Shown: piece after piece, positions 2,006 to 13,821 of the stretch | Layout of the letters: each line of letters begins with the position of its first letter | Numbering within the stretch: the stretch's first letter is position 1 | Assembly (NCBI GenBank): GCA_027295245.1 | Contig: JAPULF010000400.1 | Location: 1 to 13,821, forward strand | DNA length: 13,821 bases | Direction of reading: 5' to 3' | From: Planctomycetota bacterium | GTDB lineage: Bacteria; Planctomycetota; Phycisphaerae; UBA1845; UTPLA1 | Translations under genes and position numbers: made by a program | The notes under the pieces: generated by a model | The model's database searches: none | Told to the model about the DNA's origin: nothing | What the model saw: only the letters and a program-made list of their open reading frames with translations

Positions 2006-3805
2006 TCACCGGCGGACATTCGCCGTCGGACCGTTTCGGTCGACCTTCGCGCCCCGACCGGATGCGACGCCGGGATCAAAGGGAACAATCTCCGTCTTCC
2101 TCAGCAACGAGATCCAACCGTCATAGTTGCATCTGTAGAATCTGTATCCTGGCGAACTCAACGGCCGTCGAAATCGAAACTCTACGGCCGTGACGTCTTC
2201 GTCTTCAACTCCGACGATCTTCCCTTCAAACTCGCCAGCATCGAAGACATCGCCTAGTGCCTTCGATGAGTTGCGGCTGCGACCCATCCCCCCGACGAAT
2301 GTGCTCAGGATCGGATCATCCGTCGCCTCGAGTCGAAGCGTGTACTCATCCACAACCCTCACCTTCGGCGACTGAACGTCCGACAGAAAAGCCACGCGCA
2401 AGTCCCGTTCCCCGGTCACTCCGCGACAGGTATCCTGGGCGAACAGCACAATGAAGTTATTCGTCGCATTCAGATAAAAAACGCAGTCTCCGGAGGACAC
2501 CTCGCGCCCGAATCCGTTCACGCAGGCACGCGCGAGTTGCGACGAATCCCGTTCGATCGAACGAACGGCCACGGCCTCGCCGATCGTGGCCAAGACCGGC
2601 GAGATCAGAAAGAACAGAACCGGTAGCCAGCGAGACCCGGAAGCGGCGGGTCTGGATTGCGTCATCCAGATAGCGCCCAGATAGGAAAGCCCGATTGTGG
2701 GCAACATCATCACGCGGTTGTCAGGCACGGTACACACAAGCAGCGGCATGAACGGAATGACCCAAAGGGCCATCGACCAGAAACGATAGTCGCCCCGATG
2801 GTGGCGCCAAAACATGCGCCCGAGAAGCAGCAGCGTGATGCCACCCAACCCGCCGAGAACATAAAGACCCAACCGCCAGGCGGGATAAAAGTAGAAAATG
2901 AACGGGTTGTAGGGATAGAGCCAGGAAGACAGCAGCAAGAGAGAGCGTCCCGGCATGGTCGACAAGTAGCCAAGCGGATCCTGAACCGGATTCAGCATCA
3001 ACGCGCCGTTCGCGCCATAGCCTCCCTTGATATAGAAGCTCAGCCAGATAATTCCGACGAGAGACATCAAGCCTGTGGCGATAACCGAACGCCGACCGAC
3101 GCCGTGTCGATCTCGAAAGGCGCACCAGAGGCACAACGGCAGCGCGGCGATCGGCAGTGTCGCTTCTTTTATGGCCAATGAAACTGCAAAAAGAGCGGCC
3201 GATGCCAACAGCAGCGCGCTGCCGCCGTCGCGCAAAAAGCGAGCCAGGAAGAGAACCGCCCCGGCAGCCACAACGACGACGCCCAAGTCACCCCGGGCGG
3301 AAAGAAAGACCACCGGAACCGCATTGGAAGCAGCCACCGTGAAGAAAAGTGCCGCCCAGCGAGCGATACGTTCGCCACCCCCGATGATACGATAGATGGC
3401 CGACACGAGGCGCACGCCGATTATGTAGAGGATCAATCCGTCGATTCGATAGCCGAGTGGAGAATCGCCGTAGAGAAGGAATTCGCCGTAGATAATCGCC
3501 TCCGAAAACTTGCGGAGATGCCGGTACTGCACGTCGTCACCCAACCACCACGGGTACCATCCTTCCGCCCGCTGAGCATGATTGCCTTCGCCGCCGTCCA
3601 GGAAGTTGTATAAATCGAGTTGCTCCCGCTCGCCGGCCTGATACTCCCGACACAACCGTATCACCCTGAAGTCGTCGATCGCGAAGCCGCCGGCCAGAAA
3701 AGGACCGTAGAGAATCAGCACTACACCGGCCAAGACGAGTCCGGGTCGGGGCGTATTCTCATACCAGACCGCCAATCGGCTGAAGCGATGCAGGATGTAA
3801 TTCAT
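2006..3805 (-). CDS. Polytopic GT-C-like membrane protein (TMTC/PMT-type glycosyltransferase candidate)
   Basis: The 599-residue protein has about ten to twelve hydrophobic segments over residues 22-410, followed by a soluble C-terminal region of about 190 residues. After the first membrane segment there is an acidic Asp44-Asp45 pair (FAIDDFRVI), the position where GT-C glycosyltransferases carry their catalytic or metal-binding acidic motif. Further family-like features are the SARGD motif at 169-173, IKEAT at 212-216, and a PDNRVMMLPTIGLSYLG segment near 361-377. These match in order the pattern of TMTC/PMT-like multi-pass transferases, which use a lipid-linked sugar on the outer side of the membrane. 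The C-terminal region, with paired cysteines, is not one I recognise. The gene follows gyrB after 98 bases on the same strand and its stop lies 14 bases from that of the convergent acyltransferase. The enzyme class is inferred; a non-enzymatic membrane protein cannot be excluded. Confidence 0.65.
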   Translation of the reverse strand: MNYILHRFSRLAVWYENTPRPGLVLAGVVLILYGPFLAGGFAIDDFRVIRLCREYQAGEREQLDLYNFLDGGEGNHAQRAEGWYPWWLGDDVQYRHLRKFSEAIIYGEFLLYGDSPLGYRIDGLILYIIGVRLVSAIYRIIGGGERIARWAALFFTVAASNAVPVVFLSARGDLGVVVVAAGAVLFLARFLRDGGSALLLASAALFAVSLAIKEATLPIAALPLCLWCAFRDRHGVGRRSVIATGLMSLVGIIWLSFYIKGGYGANGALMLNPVQDPLGYLSTMPGRSLLLLSSWLYPYNPFIFYFYPAWRLGLYVLGGLGGITLLLLGRMFWRHHRGDYRFWSMALWVIPFMPLLVCTVPDNRVMMLPTIGLSYLGAIWMTQSRPAASGSRWLPVLFFLISPVLATIGEAVAVRSIERDSSQLARACVNGFGREVSSGDCVFYLNATNNFIVLFAQDTCRGVTGERDLRVAFLSDVQSPKVRVVDEYTLRLEATDDPILSTFVGGMGRSRNSSKALGDVFDAGEFEGKIVGVEDEDVTAVEFRFRRPLSSPGYRFYRCNYDGWISLLRKTEIVPFDPGVASGRGAKVDRNGPTANVRR

Positions 3806-3903: not shown

Positions 3904-6920
<3,017 letters not shown>

Positions 6921-8346: not shown

Positions 8347-9717
8347 TCAATCTTGACGGAGATCCTCCACGATGGACTCCAAGCGCGAGCGGAATTCAAC
8401 GTCATTTTCGCGACGACGGGACACCAACTTGTTCGCGTGGAGAACAGTGGTGTGGTCTCGGCCGCCGAAAAATCCACCTATTTCTTCGAGGCTGTGTCGG
8501 GTGAGCTGTCTGGCCAAATACATGCACACCTGCCTCGGAAACGCGATCGAACGGCTCCGCCGCCGCCCCTGGAGATCGGATAGTTTGACACCGAATACGC
8601 CGGTCACGACGCTCATGATGTCCTGAATCCGGACTTCGGGCGGGGGCGGGGCCACATGATCGACCAAGGCCTCCTCCGCAAGGGCTCGGTCGATCACGCC
8701 GTTATTGAGGGCCCCCATGGCCCCGATACGGGTGATCGCACCTTCAAGCTCGCGTGTATTGGTCTTGATCCGAGTTGCCACGAGCATGGTGACTTCGTCG
8801 GGAAGATCGATGCTACGGAGCCTCGCCTTTTTGCGCACGATCGCCAATCGCGTTTCCAGCGACGGGGCATCGATTCTGGCCACAAGACCCCAATTGAAGC
8901 GGCTGATGAGCCGTTCCTCGAGGCGGGGCAATTCCGAAGGAGCACAGTCGGCGGAGAGGATTATCTGCTTTTGAACCTGATAGAGCGTGTTGAATGTGTG
9001 AAAGAACTCGTCCTGCGTTCGTTCGTGCCCGCTAAGGAACTGCATATCGTCGATAACCAGCGCGTCGGCATGACGATAGCGGTATCGAAACGTGTCGATC
9101 GCGCCCCGCTCGATCGCCTCCACGAAGTGATTGATGAACGTCTCACACGAAAGGTAGGTGATTTTGCTGGCCGGGGCATCGTCGAGGATCTGGTGACACA
9201 CCGCCTGCAAGAGGTGGGTTTTCCCCAATCCTACGGCGCCGTGGAGAAAGAGGGGGTTGTAGGCCCTTCCGGGGTTCTCTCCCGCCGCGAGACAACTTGC
9301 GTGCGCCAATTGGTTGCTGGGGCCCGCTACGAAGTGTTCGAACTGATATTCCGGATTCAATCTCGCCAAGGAGCCGTCGTTCTGGAATGAGACCCGTTCG
9401 CTCTCGACACCGCGGGGGGGCGATGGGGCTGCAGCGAGGCTGAAAGTCACCGAAACCAGCCGGCCCGTGGCTGCCTGGGCCGCCTCCACGAACGAACCCA
9501 CGCAGTACGCTTCCATGTACTCGAGCTGATCGCTTTTCGCGACGTATATTGTCAGATTACCGCTCGAAAGAGGTCCAGGCCGCAGTCGACTGAACCAACC
9601 ACGCGCGACCGTCGCATGATGTGCGCGGACATACTCCAGAACGTCCCCCCAGACCGCATCACTTAAAGCGTCCATCGTGTCTCGCCGGACCGAGTGGTCG
9701 AGCCGCCACGCGGTCAT
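8347..9717 (-). CDS. dnaA: Chromosomal replication initiator DnaA
   Basis: DnaA binds DnaA boxes at oriC, oligomerises with ATP and opens the duplex. Seen in the 456 residues: a divergent domain I (about 15-95) with only a short linker (95-118); the AAA+ domain III starting at NPEYQFEHFV (121-130); Walker A GAVGLGKT (160-167); Walker B VIDDM (221-225); the sensor II segment TRELEGA (321-327) with Arg322; and DNA-binding domain IV ending in the DnaA signature GGRDHTTVLHA (418-428), with a basic stretch RRRSRS before it. The start is ambiguous. ATG 9717 has AAGG seven bases upstream, while ATG 9675 (residue 15) agrees better with where the family usually begins. The gene diverges from the TPR/alpha-CTD gene across 289 bases. 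A weak DnaA-box-like site beside its promoter candidate suggests possible autoregulation. Confidence 0.97.
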   Translation of the reverse strand: MTAWRLDHSVRRDTMDALSDAVWGDVLEYVRAHHATVARGWFSRLRPGPLSSGNLTIYVAKSDQLEYMEAYCVGSFVEAAQAATGRLVSVTFSLAAAPSPPRGVESERVSFQNDGSLARLNPEYQFEHFVAGPSNQLAHASCLAAGENPGRAYNPLFLHGAVGLGKTHLLQAVCHQILDDAPASKITYLSCETFINHFVEAIERGAIDTFRYRYRHADALVIDDMQFLSGHERTQDEFFHTFNTLYQVQKQIILSADCAPSELPRLEERLISRFNWGLVARIDAPSLETRLAIVRKKARLRSIDLPDEVTMLVATRIKTNTRELEGAITRIGAMGALNNGVIDRALAEEALVDHVAPPPPEVRIQDIMSVVTGVFGVKLSDLQGRRRSRSIAFPRQVCMYLARQLTRHSLEEIGGFFGGRDHTTVLHANKLVSRRRENDVEFRSRLESIVEDLRQD

Positions 9718-9918: not shown

Positions 9919-10006
9919 AATGGGTTCGACAAATCCAACGAATGGCGGCTGGATCCCGCGCCCGGCGCGCAATTACGTTCGTTTATAAGGAGGCCAACCG
10001 GCGACC

Positions 10007-11344
10007 ATGGAAGCAACAATGGATCTTTCGGCGATTTTTGAACAGCAGGAACTCAACGACACCGTTTTCGCCAGCCTCAAGGAACTGGCGTTTGCAAATA
10101 CGGAGTCTTTTGATCGGTTTCGGACCCTCATCTCCGAGCTTGACCAGAGTCTCACCGCCGGGCGGCCGGACGCTGCGTCACACGCCTTGAAGCTGGGGTC
10201 GTGCTATCACGCAATAGAGAATTTCGCTAAGGCCGAGCAATGGCTCAATACGGCCCCGGCCGGACCGCGGCGCAGCCTCAACCTTGCCCGCCTCTATCGC
10301 GACCAAAGAAAGTTCGACGAGGCCTTGCGTGAAATCGATCAGGCCCGCAACCAGGGTGGCGACAGGACCGAGTGCGAGTTGCAGCGGGCGGAAACCTACA
10401 TTGCATGCGGTCAAATCGATGCGGCTTTGCCGATTATCGATCAGTCTGCTTCCGTGAAGGAATCGTCGGCGCAATGGAATTACCTCGAGGGCCGCCTTGC
10501 CCAGGCGGGAGGTGAGCTCGAGCGGGCCGCCCGGTCTTACGAAAGGGCTCTCGAGCTTGAAGAGGAGCATCCTCACGCCCTGTTTCACCTTGCGTATTTG
10601 GCGAACCTGTTCGGTGATGACGAGGCCGCTTTGCAACATTACCAGGACTGCGCCAGCCTGCCCTACGTCTACACCAATGCCCTCATTAACCTTGCGGTCA
10701 TGTACGAGGACGACGGTGATTACGATGAAGCGGCCAAGTGTTTGAGGCGGGTCCTGGCGACCAGCCCCAACCATCCGCGTGCGCAACTCTACCTCAAGGA
10801 CATTCTGTCGGCACAGGAGATGTACTACGACGAGGCACAGGTGGAGGCCCAGCAGCAGTACGACGCCGTCATGGACATTCCGGTCACGGATTTCGAGTTG
10901 TCGGTCCGCGCAAGGAATTGCCTCAAGAAGATGAACATATTCACGCTCGGAGATCTCCTGAGAATAAGCGAGCGCGAGTTGCTGGCCTACAAGAACTTCG
11001 GGGAAACCTCGCTCAACGAGATCAAGGCCATGTTGACCCAGAAGGGGCTGGCCCTCGGCCAACTCTCCGGCGAGACCGCCGTCCCGGCGAGTGAGGCCGC
11101 CGCCGCCGCACCGACCACCATCCTGCAAGGCGACTCCGAGCTAATGACGCGACCGGTGTCGAGCCTTCAATTGTCGGTTCGGGCTCGGAAGTGTCTTCAA
11201 AGGCTCGGCCTCAACTCCGTCGGCGAGTTGATTCGCACGAGCGAGCCGGAATTGCTGGCCTCGAAGAACTTCGGATTGACGTCGCTGAGCGAAATCAAGC
11301 AGCGTTTGGGCGAAATAGATTTATCGCTCAGATCGATCGATTAA
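10007..11344 (+). CDS. TPR protein with two C-terminal RNA polymerase alpha-CTD-like domains
   Basis: The 445 residues consist of about six TPR-like helix pairs (roughly 57-257; clearest at 156-187, 190-220 and 224-257) and two tandem domains that resemble the C-terminal domain of RNA polymerase alpha (291-351 and 382-441), joined by an Ala/Pro-rich linker. Compared from memory with Escherichia coli alpha, the counterparts of Arg265, Cys269, Gly296, Ser299 and Glu302 are kept in both (Arg301/392, Cys305/396, Gly332/423, Ser335/426, Glu338/429). Asn268 is kept only in the first (Asn304; Lys395 in the second) and Lys298 is Thr in both. The two domains are identical at about 32 of 60 positions. 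No alpha N-terminal assembly domain is present, so it is not RpoA. It may bind DNA or transcription proteins while the TPRs bind a partner; the function is unknown. AAGGAGG at 9987-9993 is a strong ribosome site but 13 bases from the ATG. It diverges from dnaA and precedes the SpoIID gene by 51 bases. Confidence 0.9.
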   Translation: MEATMDLSAIFEQQELNDTVFASLKELAFANTESFDRFRTLISELDQSLTAGRPDAASHALKLGSCYHAIENFAKAEQWLNTAPAGPRRSLNLARLYRDQRKFDEALREIDQARNQGGDRTECELQRAETYIACGQIDAALPIIDQSASVKESSAQWNYLEGRLAQAGGELERAARSYERALELEEEHPHALFHLAYLANLFGDDEAALQHYQDCASLPYVYTNALINLAVMYEDDGDYDEAAKCLRRVLATSPNHPRAQLYLKDILSAQEMYYDEAQVEAQQQYDAVMDIPVTDFELSVRARNCLKKMNIFTLGDLLRISERELLAYKNFGETSLNEIKAMLTQKGLALGQLSGETAVPASEAAAAAPTTILQGDSELMTRPVSSLQLSVRARKCLQRLGLNSVGELIRTSEPELLASKNFGLTSLSEIKQRLGEIDLSLRSID

Positions 11345-11395: not shown

Positions 11396-12715
11396 GTGTT
11401 TCCGAAGTTTCGAAAGTTGCTCGGGACGGATGGGCTTCAACGCTTCGGGCTGATTCCCTTTCTTTTCATGGCACTTGCGTTGGTGACCTTGTTGTTCGTG
11501 GGTTGCCTGCGGTTGATGGAATGGAACCGTCCGCGCGACGTCGCTCGGGCCGAATCGGCTTCCGGGGTCAGCGTCGAGCGCGATATTTCCGTGCGGCTGA
11601 TGGGCCGCCAGCCGCGCCGCGATGTTCAGATTGCCGTCACCTCCGCCTTTTCCATCTCAGACGCCCGGAGTGATCGACCGGTGTATCAAAGTGACGTGCC
11701 GATCGGTCTTTCGATTGTCGCGCCCTTTCGAAAGAACGGTATTTCGATCGGACACAGAACCATCGACAGCAACGATGTGATCGTGACGCCGGTGCGAGAC
11801 GCCTCCATCGTCGTGGCGAAACCGACCCGTCGCGGAAACGTGCCACATACCTACCGCGGGCGGCTGCGAATCGAGCGTCGCGGCGACGGACTGTGCTTCA
11901 CGAATCTCGTGGACGTCGAGTCCTATCTCTACGGAGTTCTGCGCGGCGAGCTGCCTCGATCATTTCACAGCGAAGCGTTCAAGACCCAGGCGGTCGCGGC
12001 AAGGACGTATGTGCTGTACCAGAAGCGCATTGCGTCGCCGGGACGCACGTTCGACGTCCTCGATCACGAGGGAAGCCAGATGTACATCGGCGTCCGTGGC
12101 GAGGATCGAATCGCGGTCAGGGCCGTCGACGCCACGCGCGGCGAGGTCTGCCTGTGGAACGATAACGAAGAGCTGGAACTCTTTTGCACCTATTACTCAT
12201 CGACTTGCGGCGGCCTGTCTCAGCCGGTCAACTACTTCCGCGGCAGCGAAAGGAACATACCGCCCCTCTCCGGGAATGTGCGATGTACCGATTGCTACGT
12301 GTCGCCGTACTACCGATGGAAATCGGTCCGGGTTTCCAAGGCGGACGTCACACGCCGCATCGTGGAGAATTACCCCAGCGTCAAACGGATAGGGCGAATC
12401 ACCCGACTCGAGCCGAAGGCCAAGACCTCCGACGGCCGCGTAATAAGAATCAAGCTCGTGGGGGCCGGCGGGTTGAACGAGACCCTCATGGGGGAGGATT
12501 TCAGGTTGTCCGTGGGTAGCAGGGTGCTGAAGTCCACGAATTTCATGATCGCCGACGACGGCGACCATTTTGTTTTCTCGAACGGCCGAGGATTCGGACA
12601 CGGCGTGGGTCTCTGTCAGTACGGAATGGAAACCAAGGCCGCGCGGGGAATGAGCTATGTGGACATTCTCGCGGCCTACTATCCGGGCTCTCTGGTCCGG
12701 CGTGTCTATGACTGA
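11396..12715 (+). CDS. Membrane-anchored SpoIID/LytB-type peptidoglycan lytic enzyme
   Basis: The 439-residue protein has one hydrophobic segment (about 17-37), ending in Val-Gly-Cys37, which serves as a membrane anchor or, less surely, a lipoprotein signal. The SpoIID domain spans about 165-438. It shows VESYLYGVLRGELP (174-187) with Glu185 at the catalytic position known for SpoIID, the helix EAFKTQAVAARTYVLYQ (193-209), the STCGG motif (269-273) and the terminal GRGFGHGVGLCQYGM block (397-411). In sporulating Firmicutes SpoIID is a lytic transglycosylase that cuts glycan strands lacking stem peptides. Outside that group related proteins are usually annotated as SpoIID/LytB-domain proteins and probably remodel the cell wall in the periplasm. 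Nothing here suggests sporulation. The start is GTG, supported by GGAG about nine bases upstream; the first in-frame ATG would cut the anchor. Residues 45-165 are not recognised. It is probably cotranscribed with the gene upstream. Confidence 0.88.
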   Translation: MFPKFRKLLGTDGLQRFGLIPFLFMALALVTLLFVGCLRLMEWNRPRDVARAESASGVSVERDISVRLMGRQPRRDVQIAVTSAFSISDARSDRPVYQSDVPIGLSIVAPFRKNGISIGHRTIDSNDVIVTPVRDASIVVAKPTRRGNVPHTYRGRLRIERRGDGLCFTNLVDVESYLYGVLRGELPRSFHSEAFKTQAVAARTYVLYQKRIASPGRTFDVLDHEGSQMYIGVRGEDRIAVRAVDATRGEVCLWNDNEELELFCTYYSSTCGGLSQPVNYFRGSERNIPPLSGNVRCTDCYVSPYYRWKSVRVSKADVTRRIVENYPSVKRIGRITRLEPKAKTSDGRVIRIKLVGAGGLNETLMGEDFRLSVGSRVLKSTNFMIADDGDHFVFSNGRGFGHGVGLCQYGMETKAARGMSYVDILAAYYPGSLVRRVYD

Positions 12716-12816: not shown

Positions 12817-13821
12817 ATGCGCCGAAACCGACCCCGACTCAATGGATTCCTCACCGGCGTGGCCGTCACCGCGTTGTGTGTGACCCTCTGGTTTCAATTC
12901 GGCCTGGGTGAAAGACTCGAGCTTCAATCGCTCGACATTCGTTTCCGGAGTTTCGGAGACGTCGACCGCGATTCCCGCATCGTCCATGTAGACATCGACG
13001 ACAACGCCCTCGACCGAATCGGGCGCTGGCCCTGGCCGAGGCTGGATACCGCCGACCTCGTCAGGACAATTCACGAGTTGGGTGCGTCTGTCATCGCGAT
13101 CGATCTTCTCATTGACGAGCCACAGACGCTGCGCAGGAACGATCCCAGCCTCTCAAAGGACCACGACGTCGAGCCCGACGTGAAAATCGAAGGACAGCCG
13201 ACCGATGCAGAGAGGGTATACGATGACATCGAACTCGCCGACGCGTTGCGGACCGCCGGCAGCGCCTTCATTTCGATTCAAGCGAAGACTGTCGGGCCGG
13301 GCATGCCCGATCCGGAGGACACGCGGATACGGAGGCTCTATGAGGAAGACCCGGGTATCGACACCGCCGCGGTCATTGCTGAACTGGGACTGGAGGACAA
13401 GCCGATCCAGCACAGTAGCGTTTCGAAGAGCCTTCTACGCGAACGAATCAGAGCAGCGCTCCTGAGGCGTTTCACCCTATCGGAAAAGCAGCTCGAGCGG
13501 CAATTAAAATTGACAAGAGACGATGTCTTGTCAGTGGTTGCGGGTGTGAAGGCGGAGGCTGCGAACGAACTCGTCGCGCGGATTTTTGCCGAGGGAAAAG
13601 AGCCCACCTTCGAGGAAGCTCGTCAGAGCGTTCTCGGAGAAAGTGCCGACACGCGTAATGCAGACCGTCAGGACGTGCTCGTGGCATTCCGTCGCCAAAA
13701 CGGGCTCGCGGCGATGCGGGCTCGGTCTCTTTCCACCGGATCGTCTGCCCGCGGGCGCCTGCAACGGGCGGTGAGTGCCGAGCCGCCGCTGGCTATTTTC
13801 GTAGAGGCTTCGTGCGGCTTC
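12817..13821 (+). CDS. CHASE2-domain sensor protein, 3' end missing
   Basis: The frame is open for 335 codons from ATG 12817 to the right edge. A short basic N-terminus leads into one membrane segment (about 11-29). Then comes the start of an extracytoplasmic CHASE2 sensor domain: SLDIRFR (38-44), RIVHVDIDDNALDRIGRWPWPR (54-75) and the strand SVIAIDLLIDEP (91-102), followed by DIELADALRTAGSAFISI (137-154). Residues about 160-320 are unusually long, charged and mostly helical, and look inserted before the next expected CHASE2 segment at 322-335 (PPLAIFVEASCGF). CHASE2 domains sit in front of adenylate cyclase, diguanylate cyclase, kinase or serine/threonine-kinase outputs; the output here is outside the window. 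No clear ribosome site precedes the ATG. It lies 101 bases after the SpoIID gene on the same strand and may share its transcript. Confidence 0.8.
   Translation, partial: MRRNRPRLNGFLTGVAVTALCVTLWFQFGLGERLELQSLDIRFRSFGDVDRDSRIVHVDIDDNALDRIGRWPWPRLDTADLVRTIHELGASVIAIDLLIDEPQTLRRNDPSLSKDHDVEPDVKIEGQPTDAERVYDDIELADALRTAGSAFISIQAKTVGPGMPDPEDTRIRRLYEEDPGIDTAAVIAELGLEDKPIQHSSVSKSLLRERIRAALLRRFTLSEKQLERQLKLTRDDVLSVVAGVKAEAANELVARIFAEGKEPTFEEARQSVLGESADTRNADRQDVLVAFRRQNGLAAMRARSLSTGSSARGRLQRAVSAEPPLAIFVEASCGF

Follow-up and report, generated by a model that had tools for sequence, protein, structure and literature searches.

A phylum-wide TPR protein of Planctomycetota carries two RNA polymerase alpha-CTDs and may supply this domain in trans

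The C-terminal domain (CTD) of the alpha subunit is a main upstream contact of bacterial RNA polymerase and is normally tethered to the enzyme by a linker. The window analysed here, a stretch of 13,821 nucleotides (nt) from contig JAPULF010000400.1 of the Planctomycetota assembly GCA_027295245.1 (a draft of 653 contigs, 75.5% complete), raises the question of what two such domains do on a protein that has no polymerase assembly domain. The gene in question occupies positions 10007..11344 of the plus strand, stop included; it starts with ATG, lies 13 nt downstream of a ribosome-binding-like AAGGAGG that was read directly at 9987..9993 (+), and encodes 445 residues, a length and layout matched by its homologues. 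In this report, we show that the protein consists of a tetratricopeptide repeat (TPR) solenoid and two alpha-CTDs, that its gene is nearly universal among the Planctomycetota sampled and that its first CTD is more conserved than that of the polymerase itself. We propose, giving the idea not quite an even chance, that it is a core transcription-associated adaptor supplying the alpha-CTD in trans.

The initial annotation, made from the letters alone, had described two tandem alpha-CTD-like modules on a TPR scaffold, and the domain searches bear this out. In a Pfam scan of the window proteins (25 of its 27 matches are listed), RNA_pol_A_CTD (PF03118) matched the whole protein in two stretches with an E-value of 1.6e-40 and 137.1 bits (cut-off 23.8), and several TPR models exceeded their cut-offs, the best ones inside residues 99-263. 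When the whole source genome was searched with PF03118, three CTDs were found, namely CTD1 (79.1 bits) and CTD2 (66.6 bits) of this protein, each above the curated cut-off in its own right, and the CTD of the genome's own rpoA (79.8 bits), a separate gene on another contig. Sequence matches in PDB were equally uniform: RNA polymerase alpha chains made up all 37 matches of CTD1 alone at E<=1e-8 (best 3.8e-13) and all 42 matches of CTD2 alone at E<=1e-4 (best 1.2e-11). In the AlphaFold model, a helical solenoid at residues 7-271 (10025..10819, +) forms a block with a predicted local distance difference test (pLDDT) score of 85-98 over residues 11 to 270; it is followed by CTD1 at residues 285-344 (10859..11038, +), a disordered linker at 349-376 (11051..11134, +) and CTD2 at 377-442 (11135..11332, +). 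The linker has pLDDT below 50 at residues 357-372 and a mean pairwise identity of 21% among 33 genomes. Because the 50 Foldseek matches listed for the whole model were, by title, TPR or other helical-repeat proteins and included no alpha-CTD, we folded the CTD part separately; the models so predicted show the alpha-CTD fold, whose absence had been named beforehand as counting against the annotation, and their fold matches include the Spx complexes 1z3e and 3gfk. In agreement with the initial annotation, the alpha N-terminal assembly domain was not found: the rpoA equivalog models of NCBIfam reached at most 133.6 bits against cut-offs of 227.8-523, with their best stretches confined to residues 268-352, and TPRs precede CTD1. 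By a crude hydropathy scan, nothing in the protein resembles a membrane segment (the 19-residue mean peaks at 1.06).

How widely is this architecture distributed? All genomes sampled for this purpose were Planctomycetota. With a profile built from 71 relatives, 113 of 119 genomes of an even draw, the source genome counted, gave a match at E<=1e-40, as did 69 of the 70 with completeness of at least 90% and contamination of at most 5%; for comparison, rpoA was found in 115 of the same 119 at E<=1e-30. In a larger draw, the best E-value was below 1e-50 in 277 of 294 genomes (counted by eye) and between 1e-5 and 1e-33 in the remaining 17, all of which except G031 and G143 are listed as less than 90% complete; the raw tally of 294/294 includes even partial matches to the TPRs or a CTD. 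The nearer relatives numbered 101; of these, 94 reached E<=1e-20 (in G369 over a CTD-sized stretch only), and three of the seven without a match are more than 90% complete; in several others the match begins only near residues 117-130, giving short forms. Entries that name an organism are planctomycete or unassigned among the best 120 of 7883 protein matches and the best 80 of 236 titled loci. Ten stretches of viral contigs matched a pattern and no relative was confirmed there; tandem relatives were likewise not found on plasmids, where none of 56 records covered 80% of the query and the two records inspected are annotated as full-length RpoA genes. Thus, the supposition that this is a lineage-wide planctomycete protein holds, and the gene is close to universal in the phylum.

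We then compared CTD1, CTD2 and the RpoA CTD over 60 matched columns, extracting the TPR protein and RpoA from each genome. The 33 genomes paired first were among the best scorers of the 294-genome draw; to offset this, we included 20 of the 24 genomes that scored lowest in the even draw, omitting G091 and G082 (match without CTD), G036 (no rpoA match) and G113 (match at a contig edge). Mean pairwise identities in the first 33 genomes were 70.5% for CTD1, 55.9% for the RpoA CTD, 58.0% for the RpoA N-terminal domain and 50.5% for CTD2; in the 20 low-scoring genomes they were 63.8, 47.5, 52.0 and 35.9%, with 34.6% for TPR residues 155-271, and over all 53 they were 67.1, 51.6, 54.0 and 42.6%, with 36.7% for the TPRs. 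CTD1 identity exceeded that of the RpoA CTD in 1264 of 1378 genome pairs (27 equal), by a mean of 15.6 points (12.8-18.6 by bootstrap over genomes). CTD1 is therefore more conserved than the polymerase's own CTD, and CTD2 is looser.

The residues concerned point in the same direction. In E. coli numbering, which we use for all alpha-CTD positions below, CTD1 of the window protein has R301, N304, C305, N330, G332, S335 and E338 at 265, 268, 269, 294, 296, 299 and 302, and CTD2 has R392, C396, G423, S426 and E429 at 265, 269, 296, 299 and 302, so that the residues listed by the initial annotation are indeed present in both modules; Asn268 is retained in CTD1 only, CTD2 having Lys, and Lys298 is replaced by Thr in both modules, as in most RpoA CTDs of the phylum. 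R265 and N268 are DNA residues of the alpha-CTD, as a passage in PMC11434276 states. Across the 53 genomes, the DNA-contact surface is fully kept in CTD1 (R265, N294 and G296 in 53, E302 in 52, N268 and S299 in 51, C269 in 50) but only partly in CTD2, where R265 (51), E302 (52) and G296 (49) are common, N294 (44) and S299 (40) less so, and N268 (4, with Lys or Arg in 40) and C269 (23) are largely lost; the equivalence of the two modules implied by the initial annotation is thus not supported. CTD1 accordingly keeps both features, the fold and the surface, whose loss would have spoken against the annotation. In a further set of 201 closer relatives (120 proteins, 80 loci and the window), CTD1 positions 261, 265, 268, 269, 294, 296, 298, 299 and 302 are invariant, and 259 is always acidic (176 D, 25 E).

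A second surface of CTD1 is equally well kept. In E. coli, D259 and E261 of the alpha-CTD touch R603 of sigma70, according to a passage of PMC5511352 that cites Ross and others 2003, and it is for this reason that an acidic pair at these positions matters. The window protein has D295 and E297 there, and in the 53 genomes CTD1 is acidic (D or E) at 259 in 53 and at 261 in 52; in the RpoA CTDs the pair is relaxed, with acidic residues in 32 and 38, respectively. The source genome also encodes an RpoD-like sigma factor (L229) with the motif HPVRS at the place of R603, and two other long sigma factors, L228 and L230, lack it; both the place of R603 in the motif and the choice of the housekeeping sigma among 20 region-4 matches are matters of our judgement. 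The acidic pair, kept better than in the polymerase, and the Arg in this sigma factor add support to the initial annotation's suggestion that the protein could mimic or compete with the alpha-CTD.

The adaptor role proposed above builds on the domain identity, the predicted fold, the phylum-wide presence, the retention of the DNA and sigma surfaces in CTD1 and the looser CTD2. We envisage that CTD1 would dock in an AT-rich minor groove beside the -35 region, with its acidic pair touching sigma region 4 in the manner of the polymerase's alpha-CTD on UP elements, that CTD2 on its flexible linker could provide a second, looser DNA contact, and that the TPR solenoid may grip a partner, either a regulator or the polymerase itself; on balance, the protein would either assist the alpha-CTDs of the polymerase or compete with them at a certain set of promoters.

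Several observations weigh against this role. At position 297, 50 of 53 CTD1s have Glu or Asp whereas 45 of 53 RpoAs have Lys or Arg, a change that could weaken DNA binding, and position 298 is Thr in 51 of 53 CTD1s; since Thr rather than Lys also occupies 298 in 47 of 53 RpoA CTDs, this second change belongs to the phylum. The RpoA CTD itself keeps the DNA residues (R265, N268 and G296 in 52 each of 53, E302 in 50), so nothing forces a second copy. In addition, CTD1 has Thr or Ser at 285 and an acidic residue at 286 in all of 33 genomes and an acidic residue at 288 in 32; these positions belong to an alpha-CTD surface that activators use, and the constraint on CTD1 therefore need not come from DNA and sigma alone. 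Finally, the commonest neighbour of the gene is ruvA, not a transcription gene.

The adaptor proposal also has a bolder version. The protein might constitute a second, trans-acting alpha-CTD system, resembling a detachable subunit, in which the stricter copy shares the work at UP elements and sigma region 4 and has taken over most of the sigma contact, the acidic pair of RpoA being relaxed; we regard this as doubtful, though worth serious consideration.

The main rival to the adaptor role is that the protein works in recombination or repair with RuvAB, its tandem alpha-CTDs reading branched or bent DNA and its TPRs holding RuvA, RuvB or another partner. The alpha-CTD fold is helix-hairpin-helix-like, and the neighbourhood of the gene is suggestive. 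Judged by coordinates, the start of ruvA is at most 1 kb downstream, in the same orientation, in 65 of 110 genomes of the even draw having both genes and in 41 of 62 families, where family numbers and coordinates were entered by hand and the non-adjacent cases may include contig breaks. We also fetched 60 loci from the best-scoring genomes of the larger draw, mostly on long contigs; tblastn placed ruvA within 800 bp in 38 of them, and the ruvA cluster was seen in 37, including one antisense open reading frame (ORF) and one case 2.9 kb away. The order across the phylum is TPR-CTD, (ruvC), ruvA, ruvB, queH, spoIID, tgt, yajC and secDF (one example each of the first six neighbours was checked with Pfam, and yajC and secDF were named by eye), and a cluster headed by the TPR-CTD gene recurs in L138, L142, L143, L152 and others; in L152, where ruvC was Pfam-checked, ruvC, ruvA and ruvB follow the gene, and in L143 they do so by cluster membership. 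However, ruvA sits in a cluster of genes without a shared function (SpoIID was counted in 17 of the 60 loci, tgt in 14, yajC and secDF in 13 each), and because functions are mixed in this way the cluster argues weakly for a repair role. The tie to RuvAB is one of genomic neighbourhood only, no RuvA, RuvB or RuvC domain being among the 25 of 27 Pfam matches listed, and in the source genome ruvA lies elsewhere, side by side with ruvC on another contig. The retained sigma-contact pair of CTD1 would also have no evident use in recombination. We therefore consider a RuvAB-linked function unlikely. A narrower idea, that the protein is a general stand-in for an absent RuvC, was rejected, as 105 of 119 genomes have a ruvC.

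Two further explanations fare less well. With two DNA-type modules per chain, no assembly domain and an intact DNA surface on CTD1, the protein could be a competitor or nucleoid-like factor that covers AT-rich, UP-type DNA and excludes the polymerase's alpha-CTDs without productive sigma contact; such a factor would need no sigma-contact pair, and constraint as strong as that on CTD1 is more in keeping with a specific protein contact than with general DNA coating, which makes this quite improbable. Least probable of all is a decoy or adaptor for the activators and Spx-like proteins that normally bind the alpha-CTD, with DNA binding secondary: the alpha-CTD is also a protein-binding module, as the Spx complexes illustrate, TPRs bind proteins, and positions 285, 286 and 288 are kept, but 287, 317 and 318 vary among the 33 genomes and so strict a retention of the DNA surface would be unneeded.

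Where might such a protein have come from? In a FastTree analysis of 33 CTD1s, 33 CTD2s, 33 RpoA CTDs and six PDB alpha-CTDs, with little signal in its 60 columns, all CTD1s grouped together (support 0.985), as did all RpoA CTDs (0.881) and 30 of 33 CTD2s (0.808), the three outlying CTD2s belonging to one family, f49. This tree agrees with an ancient divergence and vertical inheritance since then; recent copying from RpoA is disfavoured by the separation of the CTD1 group. In f49 (L223, L157 and L177), the contact hairpin of CTD2 is degenerate.

CTD1 shares with the RpoA CTD its domain family (PF03118) and predicted fold, as well as the DNA-contact residues and, for sigma region 4, the acidic pair; it differs in being acidic at 297, mostly Arg at 267 and more conserved, and the protein as a whole lacks the N-terminal assembly domain and has a TPR scaffold bearing two CTDs in each chain. 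An alpha-CTD-like domain outside RpoA is also represented by NF005841 (PRK07758, 'hypothetical protein'), a short model of 95 positions without TPRs or tandem that matches weakly (46 bits against a cut-off of 115), and CTD1 faintly resembles one stretch of BREX PglW (NF033442; 39.4 bits, far below the cut-off of 990), a large kinase that belongs to a defence system. What is already known is the domain itself and the existence in databases of proteins named by it or misnamed alpha subunit. The expectation that relatives are named by domain only was right for the two usual names, 'tetratricopeptide repeat protein' and 'DNA-directed RNA polymerase subunit alpha C-terminal domain-containing protein', and no role of its own is given among the entries listed; it did not hold for several JGI entries (e.g. 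P0012, P0021 and P0024), which are called 'DNA-directed RNA polymerase subunit alpha' despite their TPR domains, likely an annotation error. Our search of the open-licence literature found no description of a TPR protein with tandem alpha-CTDs, and the available portion of PMC12283558 contains nothing on it. Planctopirus limnophila is in culture, and a transposon screen for essential genes has been published for it (PMC10632474); the main text of that paper, as available, does not contain 'tetratricopeptide', 'TPR' or 'ruvA'. If the adaptor role is correct, promoter recognition in Planctomycetota would have an extra core component, a stricter alpha-CTD on a separate scaffold encoded by a near-universal gene, and this role would be directly testable in that cultured species.

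In the window, the gene is divergent from dnaA (8347..9717, minus strand), as first described, with 289 bp between the two; this arrangement is local, dnaA being near the gene in only 7 of 80 relatives from titled genomes (some loci are cut by contig ends) and in 2 of 60 phylum loci, where it has the same orientation as the gene and lies 4.7-6.8 kb upstream. DnaA-box-like 9-mers in the whole window are within chance (13 observed, 8.95 expected, with at least as many in 27 of 200 shuffles), and a special link to dnaA or oriC was rejected on these counts. Downstream on the same strand follows a SpoIID/LytB-family gene (11396..12715, +; Pfam SpoIID E-value 4.8e-20), which is found in this place in 62 of the 80 relatives; we know of no sporulation in these bacteria. 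Further along, the start of a CHASE2 protein lies at 12817-13821 (+); apart from the window, 3 of 80 relatives have it near the TPR-CTD gene, and the L005 relative has an adenylate/guanylate cyclase domain at its end. On the minus strand, a DciA-family gene (6495-6920) is located between gyrB and dnaN, and an ORF of 599 residues (2006-3805) has no Pfam match and a weak, below-cut-off likeness to TIGR03663. Outside the window, a DksA/TraR zinc-finger gene stands upstream of the TPR-CTD gene in two loci of family f49, L177 (4283-4804, Pfam-checked) and L147 (by cluster).
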